Positions 2,969 through 20,077 of a stretch of 64,000 bases of DNA are shown one piece after another. A program made the position numbers and the translations under genes. The notes beneath the pieces were generated by a model, which saw nothing but the letters and a program-made list of their open reading frames with translations, was not told the DNA's origin and searched no databases. Position 1 is the first letter of the stretch, and every line of letters begins with the position of its first letter. Origin of the DNA: Candidatus Poseidoniales archaeon (lineage in GTDB: Archaea > Thermoplasmatota > Poseidoniia > Poseidoniales > Thalassarchaeaceae). The stretch covers positions 50,360 to 114,359 of the forward strand of contig DUAE01000030.1 of NCBI GenBank assembly GCA_012960975.1, in the 5' to 3' direction.

Positions 2969-5900
2969 TCATAAACTGAAGCCGTCGTTCTCATTTTCTT
3001 CATCAATTCCAGCAATTCTTGTATTACCTTCAGAATCGATGAACTCACCGGCTTTCACACGCGAGCCATAAAGGGTCGATTCATTAGACGATGTTCGGTT
3101 CAACATACTCTCGCCGAGAGCATTGCTTAGATGATTGATAAGCGCCTGTAGAGCAGCGATAGCTCGGTCCCTCTGATCCGCACCGATTTCATGGTCTGAA
3201 TATCGCGCTTCTTCAAAGATTGAAAACAATGTGTCCAAATCTTCAGGTGGCATTATTCCTCCAAGCATAGCATTTATTGCATCCTCAAATTCACGAGTTG
3301 TTTCATAGACTTTCTTCATAGCACCACGGCTGCGGAAGAAACGAACTAAATCCTTGTAACAATTGAAAATCGTCTGAATATAATCATTCGATGCTTTCAA
3401 TGACATCAATGAATCTGTGAGGATACCGCGAATTATTTCGATTCGGCGGCGTTCATTGTAATTTCGATACATTATCGCACCGATTAGAACAGCGAATGCT
3501 AGAGCAATTCCAATAACTGTCAAGACCTTGAACGTGAAGAAATTCGCGTTTTGTTCAACAAGCGGCTCTCCGAGATAAATCACCGGTGTGCTGTTAAGGA
3601 ATTCTTCTTGGAAAAACGATGATTCTTGGAAATGAATCAGAACTCGCCATTTGCCATTCACAGCATTAATATCGAGCTCGCCAGGAACTTCTTCTCCGGT
3701 GTAAATAAAGCTAAAATTCGCCTCACCGTGCTCATTTGTCACAGCGTATTCAACATTATTTGTTTCCCATCCTGTGCCATTCCAATACTGGAAGGTGAAG
3801 ATGACTGTTTCGCCTTCAACTGAAACATCCAAACGGTCTCGCAAAATTGCCACAGCCCCAGCGACTTCATCACCGACCTGGTAACCCAATGGATTTGACC
3901 AATGGTTCTTCAGCAAAATATCAACCTTGCTTCTGACCAATACTTCGATATCTTGGAATGAGCCGTTGACGAGAGGGGTCGTCTCAGCTCGACAACCTCC
4001 AGGTAATTCCTTAGTCGGCTCATATGCAACTCTAATCGTTCTGAAGCCCTCTAACTGATTTCCATTTGGTTCAACACCACGGCGGCTTGGATTATCATCC
4101 GGATCGCCGGAGTACCATTCGATTTCACCGGTTCCATCACGGGTGATGGCGGTTGCAATCGGACGAGTATTCGTTTCAGGATCGAGGTAGATGTTGAGAC
4201 ACTTTCCACCGACTGGGTTTCCATTGACTTGAGTCAACATTGCATCGATATGGAACGATTCCTTTAGGTAAAGAACAGGGAAAACAGTTCCGTTTTGGAA
4301 TTGATATGTGTCGACATCAGTACGGAATGGCCCTACTTCTTGGAAGGTCATTGTAGAGTTAGAAAAGACAGGGAAGAACTTCGTTATACTCGCATTTTTA
4401 TATCGATATTGATCTCCGGTTTCGTATGAAAGGAAATTCACAGTTACCTTCGCTTGACCTGCTTGAACATCATTTAGTGGGCAAATTACATCGAACATCC
4501 CATTGATGTCAGTTACATCACCTTGGCAAGATTTTACGCCTAAATCAGAGCCAACCATTTCGTATTGAACCTGGATTGCTCGGTTCGATAGATTCGAGCC
4601 AAGCTCATCGATTAACTGACCGGTAACAACCATCGGTTTATCGATAGCTTGGCCAGTAAGTGGGTCGATTTCAGAGGTGTAAACAATCTGATCATCAACA
4701 GAAAGCGTGGTGCGGCCAATCAGGCTGAATCCACGCTCATCATGACGGAAAATCTTTCGATAATGATCGCTGTTGAGAATTTGGTCGCAAGGATCCCAAG
4801 CACCTGAAATTCTCAACATTTCCTCATCGAGAGGTTCACAACCTTCATGGGGAAGGTTTTCTGCGAAACGAAGGATGACATTGACTGGCCCGAATCCATC
4901 AGGAAGGAAGGAATAAGGGTCATCTCTGAGCAATTGTGGATCTAACAACATTCTGTAATTGATTGTACCCGCATTAGGGCAAAGCGTCTCAACGATTTGC
5001 CTATGAATACGTTGTTCGAAATCTACGCCTTCAAGAATCACTAAAATTTCGCCGCCGTTTTCATCACATCCATCGAGGAATTCGCCTTTATCCTTGATAG
5101 CAGCAGTTCGATTATCGTCTGTTACCTGAGCACTGAATTCCCAATAATCTCCACTCGAAAGACGATTTTCTGTCGTACTTTGGAGAGACACAAATGTTCG
5201 AGAAACAACCCAGAGGTTGATTTCGTGGGCACTGCCTTGGCGATATGTGTCGCCTGGAAATGTATAACTTAGAGTGAAATTGCCGAGTTGATGCATTTCA
5301 TCAATCGTCAAATTGACTTGAAGAACACCGTTGTGATCGGTTATCGCTATATCGCTAGTTCCGTCTGCAGACCAAGTGAAATTCACTGGAGCATCGCGAA
5401 CAGGCTGATACGCATTGTCGATAAGCCGTGCCTCAATTGTTGTATTTTGTCCTCGATAAAGACGTGGTATCATATTCATTTGGAAATCGGTAGTACCGAT
5501 GACAGAGATGTTCACATATGCACCTGTCGGCGCGAGAACATTCGATTGATTTCCAGTAAAGTAGAAATTCGAATTTGTAAAATCTGCACGGATTCCAAAT
5601 ACGCCTGCTGCATATTGAGAATACCAGGTCCAGTTGTAATCGAATACTGCTTGGCCGTTCACCATATCTGGAGCACGCGCGAATCCAGTCTCTTGGGACC
5701 CTGCGAAAACACCGTTGTGATCTACATCAACCTGTAGAGCCATAGGGTCGTGAGGCCATGCGGTCATAGTTCGGTTCCAAACCGTTCCAATAATTCTGAA
5801 TGCTTCTCCTGTGAACATTTCTGGTACAATTTCACATCTCGCATCGCTTTCCGGATCTCTTGGGTCAATCGGTCCACATGGTGGAACGTTGAAATCCCCC

Positions 5901-8900
5901 CCATTTTGCATTGCGATGAACCAATGGGTGCCATTCGAAGAGAGGAATGGGCGTAATCTGCCAGACTCGCCAGTCAATCCTTCAGGAGTACCATCCCATA
6001 GCATAGCAAATGGTTTTCCAAGACTTTCTGTACCGAAATCAAGGCCGGCATTAGCCAAGGACGGGGCGTGGAATAATGCTCGCCATGCTCCGAAAGATGA
6101 GCCGGTAAATTGAGTTGAATCCCAAAAGTAAACTGGCCGGACGGATGGGGTTATCACATCTGCTTCGATATACATTCTATGCATAGATCGGATTGCGAAT
6201 GAATCTGTTTCATCGCCCTCTAGATATGGCCAAGGCCATTCTGCACCTAAATCGGGTCGAGACATACCAATGAAAAGATAGTCACCAATCGGTAAACTGG
6301 TGTTTGTATATTCATATATTCCAATCACGCTGTGTGATTTTGAAGTGTTATCCCAAACAATTTCCTCATAAGCACCAGGAACTTTCCCTACTCCATTATC
6401 AATTGTTGAATTCCATTGGACCTGTTTCCAAATACCCTGGCTTCCGCTCGATTGAACAAAGGAAAGTGAAATCCATCCTCCTGAATCAGATCGATAACCG
6501 TAGCCATAACCATCGAACACAGTAGGATGAGTGGCATTACCAAATGGACCACCGTGAACGGTGAACGAAATTGGTGCATGTGAGAGTCTATTGTCAAATT
6601 TACCTCTCTCCCAATCTGCAGTATAGTGTACCTTGTAATCGATGAAGAGTGGCTGTTCATCACTGCGGAAATATGTCCATGCAACATAATCAATTGTCGT
6701 GTTCGCTCGGACTTCGGTTGGAACCGGTTCGGTCGCAGCACCATCGTGAATGAACATTTCAGTTACTTCTGCATATACATTGTAAGTCAGATTAGATCCG
6801 ACTGACAAATCCTCTGGGAAAAGGAATTGACCAACCACATAATTACCATTCTCGTCGGTAAGAACATCGATAGTCTCGAGAGCGGTTGTACCATTACGGG
6901 CCCAATCAATATGGATTTGAACGGGTAGATTTGGGGCTGGCATGAAGACTCCCTGCTCAGGATCTAGCCAATTTACAGTACCATTAAACTTGACTGCATA
7001 ACGATAATCAAGCCACATTACATCTGGGACTGTTAGTGTAATTCTAGTAGGTATTTTATCATCTTCATCTAAGATGCCATCATTGTCAGAATCCCAGTCA
7101 GAAGTATTTCCATCCTCTTCCTCAAACTGATCCCAATCCGCATCTGTACGATTATCGCTATCATCATCTTCATCGATTGCATCTGGGCCGGTTTTAGGAT
7201 CAGTTGGATTAGCAATGCCTTCGCCGCCTCCGAAATCATCATGATCCCATGGATTAGTTGATTGATTATTGAATCGAGATGGCCAAAGCATAACTTCGTC
7301 AGCATCTTCCATTCCATCTGAATCATCATCCAAGTCAATATCATCTCGCAATCCATCATTGTCGTGATCCCAGGGTGAAATTAGAGGAGTCGCTGTAGCC
7401 AATTCGAGAGTGTTGACTCGCCCATCTCCGTCCCAATCATCATCAGCCCAGTTCAATATTCCATCATTATCGTGATCCCAAACCAATTGTTCTTCTCCGA
7501 CGAAACAAAGTAGTTCTTGGTCTACATCGAGAATTCCATTGTTATCATCATCTGGATCCTCGCCATCCGGAACACCATCGTTGTCATTGTCGACATCGTA
7601 ATACTTCGGATGTAGTAATCCTTGTCCCAGTATTCCAACATCCCAAACAGCTTGGAACCATCCGTCACCATCCGGGTCGGTATCTGTCCCATCATCATCA
7701 TTGTCCTCACAATTTGAACCGATGAAGAAATTGCCATCTGGCTCGGTATTTGCATCGTCATCATGGTCATCATTTGTGTCGACTTCGAAATAATCCCAAA
7801 TACCATCGTTGTCATCGTCGACATCCCAATGATCGTAAACATTGTCGAAATCATCGTCCAAGTCTGCAGTATCATTGAACATACATTGTGGATTCATATT
7901 TCCTAAAACGGGTGCTCCACAATCGTCATCTGGATCGATGTCATTATTGAGCAAATCTGCCTTTTCATCAGGGAACCAATTTGCATTTGAATCAGCATTC
8001 CACTGGAAAAAGCCGTAGTTTAAGCCAACATAAGCAATCCACAAATCTCTGTTATTTGCTATTTGATTGTATGTTACGGCAGAGCTTGGGCTAGGATTAC
8101 TCCCTGGGTCGAAAGTAAACCAAAAGCAATTCTTGTTACATGTCCATTGACCTTGAGAATTACTGCCATTATATGCACCATCATCATGTTCTGAATCTGG
8201 GCGAGAACTGTATGGATATGTGTATATCAATTGACCTTGGTTTGTTGAAGTTGGCCGAATAATCGGTGCTCCGTAGAGCCATGCATAGAACAAACCGCAA
8301 ACGTATTCCTCAGCTAATCCTGCCATAAATGCGAGGAAAAGAGAAGAGCCACATTCATTATCATCAAAAGTACCACCAAATTTGATGTCATTAACGTCGA
8401 GTTTGCCATCATTACCTTCATCCTGATCCCACCAATCAGGCAGCCCATCACCATCTTGGTCGATATCGATTCCGTTGATTAGGGAATCTCCATCAGTATC
8501 TATATCAAAGAAATTGCCGCCATTGAAAGAACTCCAACGTTGAATAACATGCCAATAAAGTTCTGGGATCTTTCCGCTATCATCAGGTGAGATTGCCGAA
8601 TCATATCCATTGTAATTCAAAATAAATCCATCTTCAGAAGTGAATGGATTAAACATCCATGATTGATTCCAATAGAAGTTATGGGCGATATCGTGTGCAT
8701 ATATCTGACCATCGTTCGAACCGTCGAGCAAATCACCATCGTCAGTTGGATAAGTATAATCAAAAATATCAGTAGTGTCGAAGTCTTGAATTCCACAATT
8801 TCCATCATCTGGGTCGTAATAATCAGAAATTCCGTCGTTATCATCATCCCAATCCTCATCATTTTGTAATCCATCGCCATCGATGTCTGTATCGAGATTG

Positions 8901-10912
8901 TTGGGTCCGTCGTCTCGATAGCGCGAACCATTCAACATATGCATGTCATTGTCATCATCGAAATCACAATTATCATCTATATCGAGCCAATCTAGAATCC
9001 CATCGTTATCATCATCGACATCATCCCAATTATTGATTCCGTCACCATCCCAGTCATTATAACCAGTATACGACTTTCTCAATAAGTAACAATTGTCATG
9101 AGGGTTCTGTGGATTTGGATTAGTAAGACTCGGGCAATCCCAGCCATCTACTGTGTCCTGGTGAACATTTGGGAAGATATCAAGTTCGTTGATTATCCCA
9201 TCATTATCCAAATCCCAAGGTTCGTCGGTTGGATCAAGGGCAGGTGCACCGACTGGATTGTCAGGGAAGGGGGTTCCTCCCATATCTGGGTCAAGCCAAT
9301 CCCATACCAAATCGTAATCTTGGTCGATAACTCGATAGCGGTCATCATCTAAATCACGGTCGTAATCGAGTTCACAATCGATTCCCGGGATCTCGATTGG
9401 GCCGGACACAGGTAAATCACCAACACCATCTCCATTGGTATCGACTTGATGGCAACGATCAGGAATTCCATCATTATCATCATCGACATCATACATATCG
9501 GCCAAACCGTCGTTATCATCATCGGTATCCGAAGAATCTGGTGAGCCGTCATTATCATCGTCTGGATCGATGAAATTTGGAATTCCATCACCGTCTAAAT
9601 CACCGTCGACAATATAGCTAAATGATTGCTCGCGGGGATGCCAAGCCATTTCTCTCTCAACGAAATCAACGCCTCCGACATATTGAGAGTAAGTATTCAA
9701 ATTAGCTGTTGAATTTACATTAATTGTCCCAGTCATTGTTGGATGAATTGTACAATCATAAGCGAAAGATCCTGCCGTGGCAAAGGTCATTGAAAATGTC
9801 CCACTAGGTGCAATATTACCACTGTCGAATAATCCTCCAATGCTTTCAGTAACTGTATGATCAGTGGTATCAGCATTCGTCCAGACGATTGTGTCACCTA
9901 CATTGATATTGATATTTCTTGGAGAAAAACCAGCACTAGTTATCGAAACTTGATGCACTTGAGCAGAATGCCAATCTACTGCTGCTGACCAATTTGCTGC
10001 GGTTTCTGTGATATTTCCAGAACGAGTCGAATCCCAAGGGTGTTCATCCCATAGATCTACTACTCCGTCACCATCATCATCCAAATCAAAGTAATCAGCA
10101 TCCCCATCACCATCGAAATCACATGGCCAAGTGAATTGATCGATTCGACCATCGTTATCATCATCTTCATCATAAGAACCTCGACCTGAACCATCAATAT
10201 CTTCATCCGGGATTCCATCATTGTCGTGATCGTAGGGATTCTGGTCAATTCTGTAACCATTTCCAATTACTAAACCAGTCCAAGGGTGAACGGTATTCGA
10301 TTGAACATAACGATCGGAACTGACATTTTGAGGATCCGCGCCTTGTGAATAATCGATTGGCCCTTCTAGAATTCCATCGTTATCATCATCCCAATCGAAT
10401 TCATCTTGAATTCCATCATTATCGTGATCGTAAGGATCTGTCCCATAACAGCCATCGAAACGCTCGATTAAATCAGCGATACCATCGTTATCATCATCTA
10501 AATCATACAAATCTGAGATGCCATCGTTATCGTGATCTTTGGTATCCGTCTCTTCAAGGAAAAATCCATAACTCGGATCCAACGCAAGGGCGGCACGGTC
10601 ACTTATCTTCCCATAAACTGCCATCGGATCATTATAAAATGGATCGGTAAAGGTTGGATTAGTAAAGCTATTTTGAGCAGCAGGCTGACTTACTCCATCT
10701 CCAGCAACGGGACCAGATGCTGTGTTAATTTGTTGATATGATGTACGCTTTTCGGCAGGTTCCCACTCAACACCATTTACCTCTTCATATGAATCAAAAT
10801 CTTGGAATGAATACATTTGTGTGCTAAACAACATCAAAAATACCATCAAGACTGCTGTAATTCCTTTTTTGGTATTTGCAATACCGAATCCATTACTCAT
10901 TTTACCTAACAT
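2969..10912 (-). CDS. Giant surface protein: calcium repeats, embedded cupredoxin, C-terminal anchor
   Basis: About 2647 residues. Hydrophobic signal segment near residues 18-36 (ITAVLMVFLMLFS). From about 125 to 1290 there are dozens of Asp-rich DxDNDGIxD repeats of the thrombospondin-type-3 class that bind Ca2+. A blue-copper domain interrupts them at about 325-402, with ligand pattern TDHTV, then DCTIHPTM, i.e. His, Cys, His, Met as in plastocyanin/azurin folds. From about 1300 to 2450 come Ig-like and regulatory-like beta modules. A membrane helix follows at about 2463-2485 (VLTVIGIALAFAVLIGAIMY) and then a cytoplasmic tail of about 160 residues resembling DUF4129 (ETTREFEDAI, FSIFEEARYS). 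Inferred to be an exported, C-terminally anchored protein of the cell envelope. GTG at 10921 or ATG at 10912 may start it; the ATG follows GGTGGTC. Confidence 0.85.
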   Translation of the reverse strand: MLGKMSNGFGIANTKKGITAVLMVFLMLFSTQMYSFQDFDSYEEVNGVEWEPAEKRTSYQQINTASGPVAGDGVSQPAAQNSFTNPTFTDPFYNDPMAVYGKISDRAALALDPSYGFFLEETDTKDHDNDGISDLYDLDDDNDGIADLIERFDGCYGTDPYDHDNDGIQDEFDWDDDNDGILEGPIDYSQGADPQNVSSDRYVQSNTVHPWTGLVIGNGYRIDQNPYDHDNDGIPDEDIDGSGRGSYDEDDDNDGRIDQFTWPCDFDGDGDADYFDLDDDGDGVVDLWDEHPWDSTRSGNITETAANWSAAVDWHSAQVHQVSITSAGFSPRNININVGDTIVWTNADTTDHTVTESIGGLFDSGNIAPSGTFSMTFATAGSFAYDCTIHPTMTGTINVNSTANLNTYSQYVGGVDFVEREMAWHPREQSFSYIVDGDLDGDGIPNFIDPDDDNDGSPDSSDTDDDNDGLADMYDVDDDNDGIPDRCHQVDTNGDGVGDLPVSGPIEIPGIDCELDYDRDLDDDRYRVIDQDYDLVWDWLDPDMGGTPFPDNPVGAPALDPTDEPWDLDNDGIINELDIFPNVHQDTVDGWDCPSLTNPNPQNPHDNCYLLRKSYTGYNDWDGDGINNWDDVDDDNDGILDWLDIDDNCDFDDDNDMHMLNGSRYRDDGPNNLDTDIDGDGLQNDEDWDDDNDGISDYYDPDDGNCGIQDFDTTDIFDYTYPTDDGDLLDGSNDGQIYAHDIAHNFYWNQSWMFNPFTSEDGFILNYNGYDSAISPDDSGKIPELYWHVIQRWSSFNGGNFFDIDTDGDSLINGIDIDQDGDGLPDWWDQDEGNDGKLDVNDIKFGGTFDDNECGSSLFLAFMAGLAEEYVCGLFYAWLYGAPIIRPTSTNQGQLIYTYPYSSRPDSEHDDGAYNGSNSQGQWTCNKNCFWFTFDPGSNPSPSSAVTYNQIANNRDLWIAYVGLNYGFFQWNADSNANWFPDEKADLLNNDIDPDDDCGAPVLGNMNPQCMFNDTADLDDDFDNVYDHWDVDDDNDGIWDYFEVDTNDDHDDDANTEPDGNFFIGSNCEDNDDDGTDTDPDGDGWFQAVWDVGILGQGLLHPKYYDVDNDNDGVPDGEDPDDDNNGILDVDQELLCFVGEEQLVWDHDNDGILNWADDDWDGDGRVNTLELATATPLISPWDHDNDGLRDDIDLDDDSDGMEDADEVMLWPSRFNNQSTNPWDHDDFGGGEGIANPTDPKTGPDAIDEDDDSDNRTDADWDQFEEEDGNTSDWDSDNDGILDEDDKIPTRITLTVPDVMWLDYRYAVKFNGTVNWLDPEQGVFMPAPNLPVQIHIDWARNGTTALETIDVLTDENGNYVVGQFLFPEDLSVGSNLTYNVYAEVTEMFIHDGAATEPVPTEVRANTTIDYVAWTYFRSDEQPLFIDYKVHYTADWERGKFDNRLSHAPISFTVHGGPFGNATHPTVFDGYGYGYRSDSGGWISLSFVQSSGSQGIWKQVQWNSTIDNGVGKVPGAYEEIVWDNTSKSHSVIGIYEYTNTSLPIGDYLFIGMSRPDLGAEWPWPYLEGDETDSFAIRSMHRMYIEADVITPSVRPVYFWDSTQFTGSSFGAWRALFHAPSLANAGLDFGTESLGKPFAMLWDGTPEGLTGESGRLRPFLSSNGTHWFIAMQNGGDFNVPPCGPIDPRDPESDARCEIVPEMFTGEAFRIIGTVWNRTMTAWPHDPMALQVDVDHNGVFAGSQETGFARAPDMVNGQAVFDYNWTWYSQYAAGVFGIRADFTNSNFYFTGNQSNVLAPTGAYVNISVIGTTDFQMNMIPRLYRGQNTTIEARLIDNAYQPVRDAPVNFTWSADGTSDIAITDHNGVLQVNLTIDEMHQLGNFTLSYTFPGDTYRQGSAHEINLWVVSRTFVSLQSTTENRLSSGDYWEFSAQVTDDNRTAAIKDKGEFLDGCDENGGEILVILEGVDFEQRIHRQIVETLCPNAGTINYRMLLDPQLLRDDPYSFLPDGFGPVNVILRFAENLPHEGCEPLDEEMLRISGAWDPCDQILNSDHYRKIFRHDERGFSLIGRTTLSVDDQIVYTSEIDPLTGQAIDKPMVVTGQLIDELGSNLSNRAIQVQYEMVGSDLGVKSCQGDVTDINGMFDVICPLNDVQAGQAKVTVNFLSYETGDQYRYKNASITKFFPVFSNSTMTFQEVGPFRTDVDTYQFQNGTVFPVLYLKESFHIDAMLTQVNGNPVGGKCLNIYLDPETNTRPIATAITRDGTGEIEWYSGDPDDNPSRRGVEPNGNQLEGFRTIRVAYEPTKELPGGCRAETTPLVNGSFQDIEVLVRSKVDILLKNHWSNPLGYQVGDEVAGAVAILRDRLDVSVEGETVIFTFQYWNGTGWETNNVEYAVTNEHGEANFSFIYTGEEVPGELDINAVNGKWRVLIHFQESSFFQEEFLNSTPVIYLGEPLVEQNANFFTFKVLTVIGIALAFAVLIGAIMYRNYNERRRIEIIRGILTDSLMSLKASNDYIQTIFNCYKDLVRFFRSRGAMKKVYETTREFEDAINAMLGGIMPPEDLDTLFSIFEEARYSDHEIGADQRDRAIAALQALINHLSNALGESMLNRTSSNESTLYGSRVKAGEFIDSEGNTRIAGIDEENENDGFSL
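7050..10560 (-). repeat. Degenerate DNA repeat tract encoding Asp-rich calcium repeats
   Basis: The plus strand here repeats variants of ccatcgttatcatcatc, the reverse of codons for DDDNDG. Unit spacing is irregular and separated by unique stretches (for example the cupredoxin segment near 9700-9950). It is the coding repeat of the giant protein and not a separate element, but such near-identical short units can recombine and change repeat number. Confidence 0.75.
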
Positions 10913-11028
10913 CGTGACCACCGAAGTACTTTCGCTGACTCTGCACTACTTATCAACGACTACCCTCGTGTGCACGTAAACGTATCAGAGACAGGTTTGG
11001 GTATCATTATTCATCCACCCCCCATATT

Positions 11029-13042: not shown

Positions 13043-13678
13043 ATGGTTCGCATCACAAGGATTCACACCGGTGGCGGAGATGGAGGTGAAACTTCTCTCC
13101 TCGATGGAGAAAGGGTTGGAAAGAATCATCCCCGTGTTGCATTTTATGGCACAATCGATGAAGTAAATTCACAGATTGGAGCCGTCAGAATGGAACTAAA
13201 TCGAATCGAAAAAATAGTACCAGATGGTGGTCAAAAAACAAATCTAATTCGTGCAGCAGAATTGGCAGACAAACGCTTAGGTATTATTCAACAAGAATTA
13301 TTTGACATTGGGGGGGAATGTTCTTGCACACCTGGAAAATTACCGAAAATGATGGAAGTAATATCTGAGCAGCAATGCGAAAGATTAGTCGAGGAGATGA
13401 ACGAATGGATCGAAGATCTCGAGCCACTCGAATCTTTCATAATTCCCACAGGATCTCCTCCCGTCGCTACCCTGCACGTAGCTCGGTGTGTCACGCGTCG
13501 AGCAGAAAGGGACGCTTGTGGACTTCGCTCAATTGAAGGTGAAGATGCCATTAGAGCAGAAGTAATATCATACTTGAATAGGTTATCTGATTGGCTCTTC
13601 GTTCTCGGAAGATGGATTACATTAAAAACCGGTGAACAAGAAGTTTTGTGGATGCCTCTCGGTAAAAGAAATGCTTAG
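13043..13678 (+). CDS. Cob(I)alamin adenosyltransferase, PduO/MMAB type
   Basis: About 211 residues. Transfers the adenosyl group of ATP to cob(I)alamin, making adenosylcobalamin. The N-terminal ATP loop IHTGGGDGGETSLLDGERV, the FYGTIDEVNSQIGAVR segment and the later TLHVARCVTRRAERD helix are the PduO-family signatures; the Arg-rich last motif binds ATP. Its likely client in this window is the class II ribonucleotide reductase at 30751. ATG at 13043 is preferred, with GTG at 13037 possible. Its TAG stop overlaps the NUDIX gene stop in the tetranucleotide TTAG. Confidence 0.92.
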   Translation: MVRITRIHTGGGDGGETSLLDGERVGKNHPRVAFYGTIDEVNSQIGAVRMELNRIEKIVPDGGQKTNLIRAAELADKRLGIIQQELFDIGGECSCTPGKLPKMMEVISEQQCERLVEEMNEWIEDLEPLESFIIPTGSPPVATLHVARCVTRRAERDACGLRSIEGEDAIRAEVISYLNRLSDWLFVLGRWITLKTGEQEVLWMPLGKRNA

Positions 13679-14088
13679 ACGGGGCGACCAACAGAAAGAA
13701 GATGGGTGTGTGCTGAATTTATCATCTCTTTTTCTTGTTCAAAAGTCAATTGAGAGTGAGCAGATTCGAAGTCAAGCCACAGATAATTTCGATGTTCATG
13801 CGATAGTTTAACAGTCAATTCATCAGTTTCAGCAAGGTACCAATATACTTGTTTTGGAGTTTTTACACCCTTTCTGAAAAATGTATATTCTGTCCTCATC
13901 TCCCAGCCATCTAATATTTTGACCGATTTGATTCCCGTTTCTTCAGAAAGTTCCCTCACCGCGGTTGAATGATAGTCTGAATCAGTGTCCTCGATGTGAC
14001 CTTTTGGAAAGCTCCAATGGCCTTGGGGATATTGCAATAATAGGACACTATCATAATTGATTAGAATGAAACCACATGATGTCTCCAT
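13675..14088 (-). CDS. NUDIX hydrolase, diadenosine-tetraphosphatase-like
   Basis: About 137 residues from the ATG at 14088. A NUDIX box is visible as WSFPKGHIEDTD followed by AVRELSEETGI; the RELSEE metal-binding helix is intact, but the first half has one extra residue and Asp where the canonical Glu sits. The N-terminal SCGFILIN and KGHIED resemble Ap4A pyrophosphohydrolases, which remove stress dinucleotides, though NUDIX substrates are hard to predict from sequence. Convergent with the adenosyltransferase gene and divergent from the DHH gene. Confidence 0.88.
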   Translation of the reverse strand: METSCGFILINYDSVLLLQYPQGHWSFPKGHIEDTDSDYHSTAVRELSEETGIKSVKILDGWEMRTEYTFFRKGVKTPKQVYWYLAETDELTVKLSHEHRNYLWLDFESAHSQLTFEQEKEMINSAHTHLLSVGRPV

Positions 14089-14173
14089 GCAACACACGGT
14101 GAGGACTTTGCCTATTCAATTGTTGCAACCGAGTGGCAAATACAATTGAGTAGAGTCCGCCTGTCAAGAAAAG

Positions 14174-15154
14174 ATGGAAGAGGCCGCACTCGCTCTAAAT
14201 ATCAGAAGAATCGTTACCGATAGTGATCTCGACGGAGTTGTCACAGGCGCAATTCTGCGTCGTTGGTGGCCAGAAGCCGAGGTAGTATTTGGCCACCCTG
14301 GAAACCTTCGGGCAGGCATGATGGATCATTTAATCGACCGACATACGGCGATTTGCGATTTACCTAGACACGAAGACTGTGGACTCAGTATCGATCATCA
14401 TCAATCCAACGAGCCGAATGCATCAGAGGATAGCGAAACAGTAATTCTCTGGAGGTCAACACCATCAGCAGCAAGAATTGCCTATGATTTACTATCTGAA
14501 AAAATCGATTTATCCGATTTGACTCAGATGATGATATGGGTCGATAAATTGGATGGTGGGGGTGTGACAAAAGAAGAATTCATGGGCAATCACCCCGTAG
14601 TTTGGCTCGGGAGAATTATCGGTTCTGATGCTGGAATAGCACTCCATATTCTTGAATCACTTCAAGCGGGCTCTTCTGTTGTTTCGATATTAAACGACCC
14701 AATTATCGAGAATATAGTGAAAGAAAGAAAAGCGCGTCAAAGTATTCTCGGCGAGTCAATTATTTCGAATATGAAAATTGTAGATCGCCTTGCAATAGTA
14801 CGATTTGAAGATAGCGGATTTCGATCGAATGGCTATCACATCACAGCCCTTGCTGGTGAAAATTGCGATGCTTGTCTGGTAATACACGGGGATGTTGGGG
14901 TGGGATTTGATGAAGAAGACAAGTATCCTGTCTCTGCTTCATTCTACACAAATTCATTCCTACACAAAAACGGCGGAATTTTTGATTTGACAAAACTTGC
15001 CACACGTTTTGACTCTGATGGGGGTGGTCACGCAAATGCATGTGGTTGTAGAATAAAACCATTAGAAAATGGTGTGGTCGTAGAGAGGATGGTTAACTCA
15101 AAAGATATTGAGAAAAACCTCGAAACATGGCTATCATTGTGGTCAAATCGTTAA
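14174..15154 (+). CDS. DHH-family phosphoesterase
   Basis: 326 residues. Metal-binding motifs: VTDSDLDGVV near residue 15, the name-giving SIDHHQSNE at about 75-83, and IWVDKLDGGG at about 123. The C-terminal DHHA1 half ends with DGGGHANACGCRI at about 290-302, the substrate-binding glycine motif. The family includes nanoRNases, pAp phosphatases and archaeal RecJ-like exonucleases; the compact size with no zinc finger fits a small-oligonucleotide phosphodiesterase. The exact substrate is not determinable. Its TAA stop overlaps the next gene's stop on the other strand. Confidence 0.88.
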   Translation: MEEAALALNIRRIVTDSDLDGVVTGAILRRWWPEAEVVFGHPGNLRAGMMDHLIDRHTAICDLPRHEDCGLSIDHHQSNEPNASEDSETVILWRSTPSAARIAYDLLSEKIDLSDLTQMMIWVDKLDGGGVTKEEFMGNHPVVWLGRIIGSDAGIALHILESLQAGSSVVSILNDPIIENIVKERKARQSILGESIISNMKIVDRLAIVRFEDSGFRSNGYHITALAGENCDACLVIHGDVGVGFDEEDKYPVSASFYTNSFLHKNGGIFDLTKLATRFDSDGGGHANACGCRIKPLENGVVVERMVNSKDIEKNLETWLSLWSNR

Positions 15155-15621
15155 AGATATTTGAAAAGATAAAGGAAACCAAGAAAGGCATGAATCAATA
15201 TCAATAACGCCATTATATCGCTAATCCTTCCGTGCAAATCTTTGATCTGAGAAAACGATTGGCCACTATCTCTTTTCGATTTTACTGACCTACCTAATTT
15301 TCTGAGGTAGAGAATCATTGCCAAACCGAGTAAACCAACCCACCCATGGAAATGGCCAGGGAGTATATTGGTTGACGAAAATGAGCCATTAATAATCGTA
15401 AAATAAATCGCTTTCGAAACAAAGGCAAGAAGGATTACTCCCATTACACCGTAGGTTAATTTTTCTCCAACTTCTTCGTGGTTTTTCAAGGCGATTTTTC
15501 TGTTATCTGATTTTAGGAGCGATCCTTTTTGCCTCCATTTCCTCTGATTGAAGAAAACCCAAATCAATCCAAGTGCTGAAATTGGATGGAGGAGAATGAT
15601 GATTGTAGCTAGCGCTTCCAT
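15151..15621 (-). CDS. Four-helix membrane protein, DUF4079/cytochrome-b561-like
   Basis: 156 residues with four hydrophobic helices: TIIILLHPISALGLIWVFF, LTYGVMGVILLAFVSKAI, GWVGLLGLAMILYL and IMALLILIHAFLGFLYL. Histidines sit within or at the ends of helices (LHPIS, PGHFHGWVG, DLHGRIS, LIHAFLG), a pattern like DUF4079 and b561-type proteins that bind haem or quinone. The family link is by eye and needs a profile search. Convergent with the DHH gene, sharing a TTAA at the stops. Confidence 0.7.
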   Translation of the reverse strand: MEALATIIILLHPISALGLIWVFFNQRKWRQKGSLLKSDNRKIALKNHEEVGEKLTYGVMGVILLAFVSKAIYFTIINGSFSSTNILPGHFHGWVGLLGLAMILYLRKLGRSVKSKRDSGQSFSQIKDLHGRISDIMALLILIHAFLGFLYLFKYL

Positions 15622-15733
15622 GATTTTTGCTACATGATAGTCAAACTTGAGGTCTTGCTTTCACCTCCTTGCTTAGCAAAGCGGATAATTCATAACAAAA
15701 TTAACGGGCGAAGAGTCGTCGGAGTGGCTTAAT

Positions 15734-18700
15734 TTGGAGCAGTATCTACTCGATTGTCTCGAAGACCTGCATAAAGCAGGTGATGATGAAGTACGTCGAA
15801 AGAATGCAATTCAGAGATCGGCAACATGGGATTTACTCGATAAGAGTTGGAAACCTTTGGCAATTATGGCGGCCTCAAAAGAAGCTCCAATCGTGAAAAA
15901 AGATTCGCAAGATCAATCTGGTCGACCGAGGGGTGCAAACCGAAGCCACCGGAGTCGAGGGGGACGCCGTGGGGGGCGAAATTCAAGACGGGGGTTCGAG
16001 GATAATCTTCCCTCACCTGATAGAATTTTAGGGGATGATCATTCAGCAGGATTCAAACTTGCAGTTTTAATTGCCCAGAAGCATAAAATGACTACAAATT
16101 GGGATGATTCTTGGGATGGGAATTTAGATTTGGTAAGAATTGAATGCGCTCAAGGGTTACATCCAGTCTGGAGTCGATTGGCACGTGAGGCCCCTCTCTT
16201 TGCTGAGATGGAGAGGTTTCCCGTAAATGAAATTGAAGCTGAAATCTATGATTCGAGTGAATGGATTGCCGCTGCTCATATTGACCCCGAAGACTCTATA
16301 CAATTGAGAGAATGGCTTTCTCTCCCCCCCCCATTCAGATTGAATTCCGGCCAGGCGCTTGCACTGGATAAAATAAAGAAGGATCTTGCTGGAAAACCAC
16401 GGCCACAATCTTGGCCTAAAACAATGAAAGAATATTTGCGTGGACTTGAGGGAATTTCTGCAATCTTGGAAAGTTTAATTCTATTGGGTTCAAAACATCT
16501 CGATGCAATCGATTCATTAGGCCGGGTTGGTAATAATGATTCATTACAATCATTAGCTGAAAAACATGCGAGACTTTCGTCTCATCGAAATGGAAATTTC
16601 GATGAATGGTCGACATCAATCCAACAAACTGGTGATGATAATCTATCAAAGGCAATTAGGGTTGAAGTCTGGAAGAATTACAATTCTTCCTATTCAAATT
16701 TAACAAAAGAAGAGCTGCTCACGGGGATAAAAATCTTGTCTGAAGAATCAATTCCCCACGCACTCAACTGGCGTATCGCGGAACTTTCGTCAGAATCTGG
16801 GGGGATGAAAGAGGCACTTGCCATTATCCAAAAATTGTCTATCGAGAATGATTCGCACCTAAGTATTGCTCTCAAAATTTCTACCGCCACCAAATCTCCG
16901 ATTTTAGAAGAAAAAATTCTTTCAGCAATTTCAAACATCTCTGAAAAAAGAGTTGCTGAAATAATGCAAACTGATAATTTGCCAATTTCAATTCAATTGG
17001 CAGCAGCAGCGGTCCTAACAAATATCAATGATGTAAGGTATACTAATGAAATTCTTTCAGTATTTACTAGAGCCGCTGACGTAACTTCTCTAGCAGAAAA
17101 AATGATTGCAGATGATTCACTAGCACTCGCCTATCCATTCAGAGCATTGATGGTATGTCAGCTGATATCTGCTGTAGATGCATTGAATATATCTTCGAAT
17201 CTGAAAAATCTCAAATCTCGCGCATTATTAGCTTTGGAAGAATCAACAGAAGATGATACTCTCTCTGAAGTATCACTTTCTCTAATCTCTCTTCTCGCCG
17301 GAGTACCATCAAACATGGATTCAATTCACCAAAAACTCGATATTGATGGAGTTGTAATCCTAAATCAAGTACGAAGGGCCCTCTCTTCAGATGGAGATGG
17401 ATTCGTTAAAGAATCTCTAATTGAATCATTAGAAACATCGATTCGAGCAGCAGATGTTTCCCATCTTGAGGCGAGATTGTTTTCTGCTTTGATTGATGCT
17501 TTATATCTCAATTTAGCAACCTTAGGATTACAAATGGGTGAAGTTGACAAGAAAGAAAGTTCAATAGAAATATTTGAAAAATTATCGAATAGTAATGAAT
17601 TGACTAATAGAACGATTCGTTCACTCGATGACCTCGTTGTCGAGCACAGCATAGGAATTGTGTCTCTAGAAAAGTGGTACAGAATCAACGACAAAGATTC
17701 TGCCGAATATCATGTTGTAAGGGCTGCGGTTGAAAGGGAAAGGGGGAATCGTGCAAACGCCGCTCGTTCTTACAAAGAAGCTTCAATAAAAATTGTAGAA
17801 GATTATGAAAACTCATCAATTTTATTGAGAAAATCCTTGATTGAATTCGCCCACGCTGGAGTATGGGATGAAGCCGTTGAAATGATTGAAGATAACCCCC
17901 AATTAATGGCTGCAGTTACACAAAAATTCCAGCTTTACCTGCATACCTGTGCAGATGTTTCAGCAGGATATACAGACAAAGCAACTCGCCGCTTAATCGA
18001 GTTTGTATCAAAAGAAGAATGGGCGGATCCTGAATTTGAAGGAGTCGACGCAGAATTCAATAAACGGCGAAAAGAATCGTTAGAATTACTTCAACGATAC
18101 CCTGATGAACATAATTTACCAAAGGAAATGTTCAATGGAAGAATTCGTGCAGCTTTCAAGACCTTAGAAAAAAGTGGCGCTTCTCGTCAATCTGATTTAG
18201 AGCGAAGATTCCATTTCGAATTGCATGATAAAAAAGATATCTTCGAACTGACTTTGCTCGGTGGGCAAATCGCTGAGAAAAAACCACTAAGAGGAATTCG
18301 AAGATTCGAAGAAGCGATTGAAACTGGATTTTTTGATGATTTAGGTGTTCGACGTTTAAGAGATACACAGCGTGCTGTTTTCGTAAGTCACAGCAATAGT
18401 ATTCCAGTAAAAGATCGCAGGACTTTACACCATTTAGGCCTCAAACCACTCATTTTAATCGATACGAATGTGTTAATTGATGCTTTGAAAGATGATTTGC
18501 TTAGAGAAATTTCAAGTGACCAATACGGATCTCTAGATTGGACTATCGAAAGGTCGTTTCATATGATGTTAATTCGAAGAAGTAAGGGTGATGTTTTTGT
18601 TACCATTCCTCCATCGGCAAGAGGAGAATTCAAACATCGAACGAAAAGTCCGGACTCAGTTCTAGATTTATTTGAAGGAGTTTACATCAACCACCAAGAA

Positions 18701-19111
18701 TGGAAAAAAATCATTACTCCAGCATTCTTGAAAGAGAGGGTGGAAATTATCTTAAATTCATTCAACACATGGAACCAATTGATCGAAATAGCTAATCGAG
18801 ATGATGTGGAATTAGAAGAATTCTTGTTAAAGCATGAGCAGATTTTTGAAATGGTTGATCAATATAAAAGGGCGCGTTCTAATTCAGTACCAATCCGAAC
18901 AGAATTGAAAGGCAAGGAAATTTATCCAGAAAATGGTGATATCGAAATTATGCAAGACGCCGCAGGATTGGCAAAATTGCCCCTTCAAGAAATTGGTTGC
19001 GTCTTAGTCGCGACAAGAGATTCTGATTTTAGATTGATTTCACGTGCTCTAGAAGAGCGATATGGTTTCGGCGTTATCTCTGATGCTCAGCAATTAAACA
19101 GTCGAATCTAA
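15734..19111 (+). CDS. Large helical protein with RG-rich segment and C-terminal PIN nuclease domain
   Basis: 1125 residues; I know of no named family with this layout. Residues about 62-90 are an Arg/Gly-rich, RNA-binding-like linker (SRGGRRGGRNSRRG). Residues about 100-880 look all-alpha and repeat-like (TPR/HEAT-type solenoid). The C-terminus is a PIN domain: LILIDTNVLIDAL with the first catalytic Asp at about 910, PPSARGEFKHR, a middle acidic residue in IMQDAAGLA, and VATRDSDFRLIS. All four acidic positions expected of an active PIN RNase can be found. The start is TTG at 15734 with GGAG about 9 bases before. No antitoxin-like partner is adjacent, arguing against a VapC system. Its end overlaps the flavoprotein gene by 18 bases. 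Confidence 0.8.
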   Translation: MEQYLLDCLEDLHKAGDDEVRRKNAIQRSATWDLLDKSWKPLAIMAASKEAPIVKKDSQDQSGRPRGANRSHRSRGGRRGGRNSRRGFEDNLPSPDRILGDDHSAGFKLAVLIAQKHKMTTNWDDSWDGNLDLVRIECAQGLHPVWSRLAREAPLFAEMERFPVNEIEAEIYDSSEWIAAAHIDPEDSIQLREWLSLPPPFRLNSGQALALDKIKKDLAGKPRPQSWPKTMKEYLRGLEGISAILESLILLGSKHLDAIDSLGRVGNNDSLQSLAEKHARLSSHRNGNFDEWSTSIQQTGDDNLSKAIRVEVWKNYNSSYSNLTKEELLTGIKILSEESIPHALNWRIAELSSESGGMKEALAIIQKLSIENDSHLSIALKISTATKSPILEEKILSAISNISEKRVAEIMQTDNLPISIQLAAAAVLTNINDVRYTNEILSVFTRAADVTSLAEKMIADDSLALAYPFRALMVCQLISAVDALNISSNLKNLKSRALLALEESTEDDTLSEVSLSLISLLAGVPSNMDSIHQKLDIDGVVILNQVRRALSSDGDGFVKESLIESLETSIRAADVSHLEARLFSALIDALYLNLATLGLQMGEVDKKESSIEIFEKLSNSNELTNRTIRSLDDLVVEHSIGIVSLEKWYRINDKDSAEYHVVRAAVERERGNRANAARSYKEASIKIVEDYENSSILLRKSLIEFAHAGVWDEAVEMIEDNPQLMAAVTQKFQLYLHTCADVSAGYTDKATRRLIEFVSKEEWADPEFEGVDAEFNKRRKESLELLQRYPDEHNLPKEMFNGRIRAAFKTLEKSGASRQSDLERRFHFELHDKKDIFELTLLGGQIAEKKPLRGIRRFEEAIETGFFDDLGVRRLRDTQRAVFVSHSNSIPVKDRRTLHHLGLKPLILIDTNVLIDALKDDLLREISSDQYGSLDWTIERSFHMMLIRRSKGDVFVTIPPSARGEFKHRTKSPDSVLDLFEGVYINHQEWKKIITPAFLKERVEIILNSFNTWNQLIEIANRDDVELEEFLLKHEQIFEMVDQYKRARSNSVPIRTELKGKEIYPENGDIEIMQDAAGLAKLPLQEIGCVLVATRDSDFRLISRALEERYGFGVISDAQQLNSRI

Positions 19112-20077
19112 TGATTCACCCAGACGACGCATTATAACTGTCGCAGATTCAATATTATCGATCGTCTCGACGCTCTTACCGGCAGAGAAGTATTGTTTCT
19201 TCTTGGCAGCAGAACCACCTTTTTTCCTAGACAAGGCCCGAAGTTTAGAAAAAGATAAAATGTTCAAGAAAAGCCTAGCAGTGTGTCGAAAACGGCCAGT
19301 TAGTAAACGCCTCATTAACCAAGAATTGTTCTGTTTGAAATGTTTTGAGCGAATAACAGATATCGGGACACCTGTCAAACGGTTGGTCCAAACAATATCA
19401 TTCTCTTTTGCTTCAACTATCGCATCTTTATAGTCTTGAGGAGATGTGCATTCTGTAGTTGCAATAAATCGTGTACCCATTTGAACACCATCATAGCCAA
19501 TGGCTAATACTTCTGCTAACTCCTTCTCACTACCAACTCCACCTGCACAAATTAGTGGCATTCCAAGATCGGATAATTCTTCATAGAGTTCAGCTGCTGA
19601 TTTCTCACCGAGATGTCCTCCTGCTCTGTCGTTAACACAAATCAAACCATCGATACCACACTCAATACCTTTCAATGCATGTTTTCTAGTCGTAACATCA
19701 TGATAGACGACCCCCCCTTTAGCGTGAACTCGTTTACATACCCAATCGGGTTTTCCAAGAGATGTTACAAAAAATCGGATACCTTCTTCCAAGGCGATGT
19801 CTATCCATTGAGACATTCGATCAATATATTTCTTTGAACCCTTTTCTATTAGAGCATTGAACCCAATCGGCTTATCAGTTAGGCTTCGGATATGCCGAAC
19901 ACCCTCGCGAAAATCCCAATCATGCACATAGGTAAGTGAAGCAGGTTGGATAATTGCGATGCCCCCCCCTTCGGAGGCAGCAGCGACTAACTCGGGGTTC
20001 GAACATGGAAACATCGCACCACAAATAATTGGATATTCGATGCCCGCATCTTCTGTAAATTTATTTTGATAACTCAT
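19094..20077 (-). CDS. Nitronate monooxygenase / FabK-like FMN flavoprotein
   Basis: 327 residues with a TIM-barrel FMN fold. YPIICGAMFPCSNPELVAAA at the N-terminus, CVNDRAGGHLGEKS (phosphate-binding loop and conserved His), LICAGGVGS and DGVQMGTRFIATTE are the nitronate monooxygenase/2-nitropropane dioxygenase signatures; the same fold is used by the enoyl-ACP reductase FabK. As last gene of the lipid operon, a role in enoyl or nitronate chemistry on acyl intermediates is plausible but inferred. It begins directly after the stop of the DUF4442 gene. Confidence 0.88.
   Translation of the reverse strand: MSYQNKFTEDAGIEYPIICGAMFPCSNPELVAAASEGGGIAIIQPASLTYVHDWDFREGVRHIRSLTDKPIGFNALIEKGSKKYIDRMSQWIDIALEEGIRFFVTSLGKPDWVCKRVHAKGGVVYHDVTTRKHALKGIECGIDGLICVNDRAGGHLGEKSAAELYEELSDLGMPLICAGGVGSEKELAEVLAIGYDGVQMGTRFIATTECTSPQDYKDAIVEAKENDIVWTNRLTGVPISVIRSKHFKQNNSWLMRRLLTGRFRHTARLFLNILSFSKLRALSRKKGGSAAKKKQYFSAGKSVETIDNIESATVIMRRLGESLDSTV

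Follow-up and report, generated by a model that had tools for sequence, protein, structure and literature searches.

The locus described here raises the question of what a large gene does in a Poseidoniales archaeon, given that its product appears to join a long helical solenoid to a C-terminal PIN domain. The gene is located in a window of 64,000 nucleotides (C30:50360-114359) from the 1.59-Mb metagenome-assembled genome G000. An open reading frame of 1125 amino acids is present at 15734-19111 on the plus strand, as given in the original prediction. The gene (hereafter solenoid-PIN) and its surroundings comprise the following features:

13675..14097, minus strand: NUDIX hydrolase, conserved in synteny (synteny and Pfam)
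14174..15154, plus strand: DHH-motif protein, conserved syntenic neighbour, no Pfam match at E 0.001
15151..15621, minus strand: hydrophobic protein of 156 amino acids, conserved divergent neighbour, no Pfam match
15721..15724, plus strand: GGAG, probable ribosome-binding site, 9 nt before the TTG
15734..19111, plus strand: solenoid-PIN gene, 1125 amino acids, TTG start (ORF list)
19094..20077, minus strand: nitronate monooxygenase, convergent neighbour, on a flank that varies among genera

Sequence comparison revealed a GGAG also upstream of the orthologues of the same genus. Relative to the nearest relative (89% identical), the gene has a dN of 0.055 and a dS of 0.479, and the resulting low dN/dS of ~0.12 indicates a real gene under strong purifying selection. 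The apparent start codon of the orthologues at L019 and L020 is CTG or ATT just before position 1501, while TTG or ATG is found in others. Two orthologues (G007:C3:10214-13586 and G145:C42:24661-28006) are broken into two ORFs, either by a frameshift or by an assembly error.

The protein was divided into the following parts, all encoded on the plus strand:

15734..15883, plus strand: N-terminal helical segment, residues 1-50, with near-invariant R22 and W39 (alignment, AlphaFold2)
15893..15991, plus strand: disordered R/G-rich linker, residues 54-86, core GRRGGR, putatively RNA-binding (pLDDT <50, R/G enrichment in orthologues)
15995..18388, plus strand: predicted all-helical TPR-like solenoid, residues 88-885 (AlphaFold2, Foldseek neighbours)
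16136..16171, plus strand: R135..C138..G141-x-H-P-V-W146, a conserved motif located N-terminally within the solenoid (alignment)
18098..18154, plus strand: YPxEHxLPxxxFxGRVxAA, a conserved motif at residues 789-807, near the PIN domain, candidate contact to a partner or RNA (alignment)
18431..19108, plus strand: C-terminal PIN domain, residues 900-1125 (AlphaFold2, sub-threshold PIN/PIN_12 matches, PDB neighbours SMG6 and Rrp44)
18461..18463, plus strand: D910 in the DTN motif, putative first catalytic acidic residue, invariant in 48 orthologues
18626..18628, plus strand: E965, putative second catalytic acidic residue, invariant in 48 orthologues
18923..18940, plus strand: YPExGD motif, Y1064-D1069, third acidic site, which marks this PIN type (Y, P, E and D invariant)
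19019..19030, plus strand: DxDF motif, D1096-F1099, fourth acidic site (D, D and F invariant)

An AlphaFold2 model of the protein, built with 20 orthologues as input, reached a mean pLDDT of 84.5. It predicts helices for residues 1-50, disorder for 54-86, helices for 88-885 and an alternation of strands and helices for 900-1125. The stretch of about 780 residues of helical repeats that had been proposed earlier is thus represented by residues 88-885, predicted to be entirely helical.

The C-terminal part carries the evidence for a nuclease. Both motifs named in the original prediction, IDTNVLIDAL and TRDSDF, are present. The predicted order of strands and helices fits the PIN alpha/beta fold, but the Foldseek E-value of 0.07 is not significant; the domain modelled alone yielded a pTM of 0.84. 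It is also the most conserved segment of the protein, with a mean pairwise identity of 0.405 compared to 0.298 for the middle of the solenoid (residues 261-640). Among 48 distinct orthologues, which were not pre-selected by the DxDF motif, no variation was found at D910, T911, N912, E965, Y1064, P1065, E1066, D1069, D1096, D1098 and F1099, the only exception being one sequence that ends early at a contig end. The D, E, D, D order of acidic residues typical of the PIN superfamily is given by D910, E965, D1069 and D1096/D1098. Free variation of the acidic residues would have spoken against the proposed nuclease; none of them varies, and judged from the sequences the domain looks active, with six invariant acidic residues (D910, E965, E1066, D1069, D1096 and D1098). 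A catalytic-type site is therefore well supported at the level of sequence conservation, and we infer that the domain cuts RNA.

Pfam provides a further view on this assignment. Weak matches were obtained in the orthologues to PIN (9/20) and PIN_12 (7/20), with a best E-value of 7.9e-5 for PIN_12. No PIN model of Pfam was matched above its curated cut-off (solenoid-PIN scores 15.7 bits, compared to 23.6 for PIN). As the PIN superfamily is very divergent, the absence of such a match lowers the claim of a PIN domain only slightly. The acidic motifs occur in the same order as in PIN_12 (PF16289) and PIN (PF01850). PIN_12 aligned over its full length to the orthologue of G025 with 19.9 bits, which is below the curated cut-off of 32 bits, and its other matches in the phylum are mostly short ORFs.

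In our reading, which we consider to have an even chance of being correct, solenoid-PIN is a Poseidoniales-specific, metal-dependent PIN endoribonuclease that acts in RNA turnover or surveillance and is laid out like SMG6. The endonuclease part of this reading appears firmer than the pathway part. The invariant site bears on a different view of the protein as mainly a scaffold, whose acidic site would bind metal or RNA but not cut. Some PIN proteins, SMG5 among them, are indeed inactive scaffolds, but the putative catalytic residues of solenoid-PIN are all invariant, unlike those of typical pseudonucleases, which makes this view highly doubtful.

When the PIN domain was compared to the PDB with Foldseek, the best match was SMG6/EST1A, with a probability of 0.85-0.89 at a non-significant E-value of 0.07 and a TM-score of ~0.47. 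Rrp44 was the next PIN among the neighbours, also with a non-significant E-value, and EXO1 followed lower down the list. The latter match touches on the idea that the PIN domain acts on DNA structures during repair or replication, with the linker binding DNA. The PIN-like nucleases FEN1 and EXO1 cut DNA and R/G linkers can bind it, but the nearest PIN folds are those of the RNA-cutting SMG6 and Rrp44, while the EXO1 matches have a probability of ~0.1; a very low probability is hence assigned to a DNA substrate.

The endoribonuclease reading draws further on the linker, which had been described as RGG-like and RNA-binding. The enrichment in R and G turned out to be real: the best 30-residue window of the protein contains 17 R+G, whereas 2000 shuffled versions of its sequence never exceeded 14, and 20/20 aligned orthologues are enriched as well. 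At least one RGG is kept in 17/20 orthologues, and R79 is invariant across the 48 distinct orthologues. True RGG triplets are few, however (1-2), so that 'RG-rich' is the better term. The linker may bind RNA.

Within the solenoid, R135, G141 and H143 show no variation in 48 orthologues. Its Foldseek neighbours include CTR9, SKI3/TTC37 and IFT-A, with E-values of 1e-5 to 1e-3 and TM-scores of ~0.2 or lower, and several of the TPR scaffolds among its PDB neighbours are tied to RNA or transcription. SKI3/TTC37 and CTR9 likewise form a long TPR-like superhelix, but lack a nuclease domain, and the low TM-scores indicate that only the repeat type is common to them and solenoid-PIN. The modelled structure thus supports a TPR-like repeat class and no specific relative. 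TPR solenoids serve many pathways, and the scaffold therefore does not identify the substrate.

Searches of Pfam, NCBIfam, PADLOC and the PDB sequences left the protein as a whole without a significant match. Weak Pfam matches (Egalitarian winged helix, ARM_TT21 and others) and the PDB sequence matches were discarded as chance. A search of BFVD with the PIN model returned a giant-virus PIN protein alone, with an E-value of 0.05. The domain layout accordingly corresponds to no family catalogued in Pfam, NCBIfam or PADLOC. The original prediction went further and stated that the combination resembles no known system; this is too strong, since eukaryotic SMG6/EST1A has the same layout of a solenoid and a C-terminal PIN domain, the solenoid being helical and TPR-like in both, in the case of solenoid-PIN according to AlphaFold2.

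Solenoid-PIN and SMG6 differ by a helical insertion between acidic residues two and three. Comparison of the PIN profile with SMG6 by hhalign, for which a query sequence identical letter for letter to PDB 2hww was used, resulted in a probability of 34.7% over 51 columns, while an unrelated short PIN reached 54.8%. Homology to SMG6 by sequence is not supported, the profile comparison being no better than with other PINs. The statement that the protein may work like SMG6 is consequently to be understood as an analogy of layout; neither the sequence score nor the fold score for membership in the SMG6 family is significant. SMG6 is the endonuclease of nonsense-mediated decay (NMD) in eukaryotes, and NMD is not known in archaea.

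No published description of solenoid-PIN was found in the literature searched. PMC9258230 ties 199 families in two modules to Poseidoniales, and these families possibly include solenoid-PIN.

PIN nucleases and TPR scaffolds are each well known. Their occurrence together in one conserved archaeal protein, specific to its lineage and with a PIN signature of its own, is undescribed as far as the libraries and literature searched show.

Orthologues were found in 263/319 genomes and 20/22 genera of Poseidoniales (Marine Group II); many of the Poseidoniales genomes without one are incomplete. None was detected in six sampled genomes of the sister family or elsewhere among the 295 genomes sampled from the phylum. 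When 201 genomes were searched with the PIN profile, one further convincing relative emerged, a protein of 971 amino acids from G556, outside Poseidoniales (L137:6269-9181). Its C-terminal PIN domain displays the same PE..D...DxDF...FG pattern and aligned to the PIN profile with 96.9% probability (hhalign, E 1.7e-10, 191 columns), whereas four other PIN-type proteins aligned over 15-51 columns with 1.5-74.9%. Its N-terminal region has TPR-like repeats as well (weak TPR matches), but no R/G linker was seen at the N-terminus and its solenoid could not be aligned with that of Poseidoniales. It was found in 1/400 genomes of its class; ten other genomes matched the G556 protein in its TPR part only, and these were taken as generic TPR matches. 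The homologue indicates that helical repeats are joined to this PIN type outside Poseidoniales as well.

The neighbours of the gene were compared in relatives, as had been suggested for a follow-up. In 20 sampled loci the upstream order of cobalamin adenosyltransferase, NUDIX hydrolase, DHH-motif protein and the opposite-strand 156-aa protein is largely kept, and the downstream flank is variable. Because an opposite-strand gene intervenes, the DHH gene is not part of the solenoid-PIN transcription unit. Solenoid-PIN and its DHH neighbour show correlated divergence (r = 0.92), in line with vertical inheritance. The gene is single-copy, vertically inherited and, apart from the one distant homologue, Poseidoniales-specific.

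These results bear on a possible role as a defence or stress effector, in which the solenoid would sense infection or damage and unleash the PIN domain on host RNA. Toxins with a PIN domain are common, and biological-conflict systems include large repeat proteins that carry a C-terminal nuclease. VapC-type toxins share the PIN fold and its conserved acidic residues; they are proteins of ~130 amino acids with a cognate antitoxin. Solenoid-PIN, in contrast, has 1125 amino acids, and both adjoining genes, encoding the 156-aa protein and the nitronate monooxygenase, are on the opposite strand and neither is antitoxin-like or a defence gene, which agrees with the earlier remark that no antitoxin lies beside it. 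The gene also resides at a conserved chromosomal site with housekeeping neighbours, is near-universal rather than patchy, and has no PADLOC match. Searches of phages, plasmids and viral contigs revealed no relatives, which again counts against such a role. Phage defence, one of the two functions originally proposed, is thus made less likely by a gene that is nearly universal, vertically inherited and fixed in place, and by the lack of relatives in these searches, and we regard a defence or stress effector as very unlikely. Solenoid-PIN probably serves as an accessory enzyme in RNA turnover or quality control rather than as a toxin or in phage defence.

The other function proposed, that of an RNA-processing or RNA quality-control factor, may plausibly apply. 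One form of it would be a nuclease that matures stable RNA: held by the solenoid, a pre-rRNA, pre-tRNA or ribosome-assembly intermediate would receive one defined cut from the PIN domain. Stable-RNA maturation is performed by the PIN-superfamily enzymes Nob1 and PRORP, and such a task would suit a gene that is single-copy, nearly universal and vertically inherited and whose site is invariant. The genomes, however, contain the known enzymes regardless of solenoid-PIN. Among the 12 genomes tested, some carrying the gene and some lacking it, each has a single Nob1-type PIN_6 (PF17146) match elsewhere in the genome, and RNase P RNA (RF00373) was present in 12/12. Protein-only RNase P (PRORP, HARP) also combines a helical part with a PIN-superfamily nuclease; solenoid-PIN differs in that every genome examined has RNase P RNA and that Pfam detects no pentatricopeptide repeats. 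Exosome RNase PH genes are likewise present with or without it, and the idea that solenoid-PIN stands in for Nob1, RNase P RNA or exosome RNase PH was therefore rejected.

The number of RNase_PH-domain genes was three each in G000, G022, G015, G021, G018, G108, G025, G029, G026 and G276, and two each in G042 and G105 of the sister family; these ten Poseidoniales genomes thus have one extra RNase PH-like gene.

A second line of evidence comes from gene loss. No genome of genus g7 was found to carry solenoid-PIN, and in g7 genomes and in G276, the sole genome of genus g20, the flanking genes are in order with the gene absent between them. A degraded or hidden copy in g7 was excluded by a negative PIN-profile search and an empty syntenic site. 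Such clean loss shows that the gene can be lost and that its function is dispensable there; for an essential maturation step, loss in one genus would be unlikely unless the step is optional. Divergence is also fast for a core factor, with a mean identity among orthologues of 33% compared to 47% for the DHH neighbour. Taken together, we consider a maturation nuclease unlikely, though less so than a defence effector. One g7 genome has a 260-aa orphan ORF at the emptied site (L093:9506-10288, plus strand).

For the endoribonuclease of RNA turnover or surveillance, we propose that the TPR-like solenoid would serve as a docking scaffold for a ribonucleoprotein partner, while the flexible R/G-rich linker would confer weak, sequence-independent RNA affinity. 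RNA brought to the C-terminal PIN domain would be cut there, with metal ions held by D910, E965, D1069 and D1096/D1098, and general exonucleases, e.g. the exosome, would then clear the fragments. In the neighbourhood, Pfam identified no gene for a known RNA-decay factor linked to solenoid-PIN. A tentative and rather improbable extension is that the PIN subfamily with the YPExGD...DxDF...FG signature, together with its TPR-like solenoid, represents an undescribed archaeal RNA-surveillance endonuclease in a pathway functionally parallel to SMG6-mediated decay.

Solenoid-PIN is conserved in very abundant marine archaea that are small, planktonic and uncultured; the gene is invisible to current family models, and its nuclease site appears intact. 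Should it be a true RNA-surveillance or decay endonuclease, it would give archaea an equivalent of the scaffolded PIN endonucleases, which are known mainly in eukaryotes. Genus g7, which is devoid of the gene, offers a natural comparison. Elsewhere in the window, a protein of 2650 amino acids rich in DxDxDG calcium-type repeats is encoded at 2969-10921 on the minus strand.
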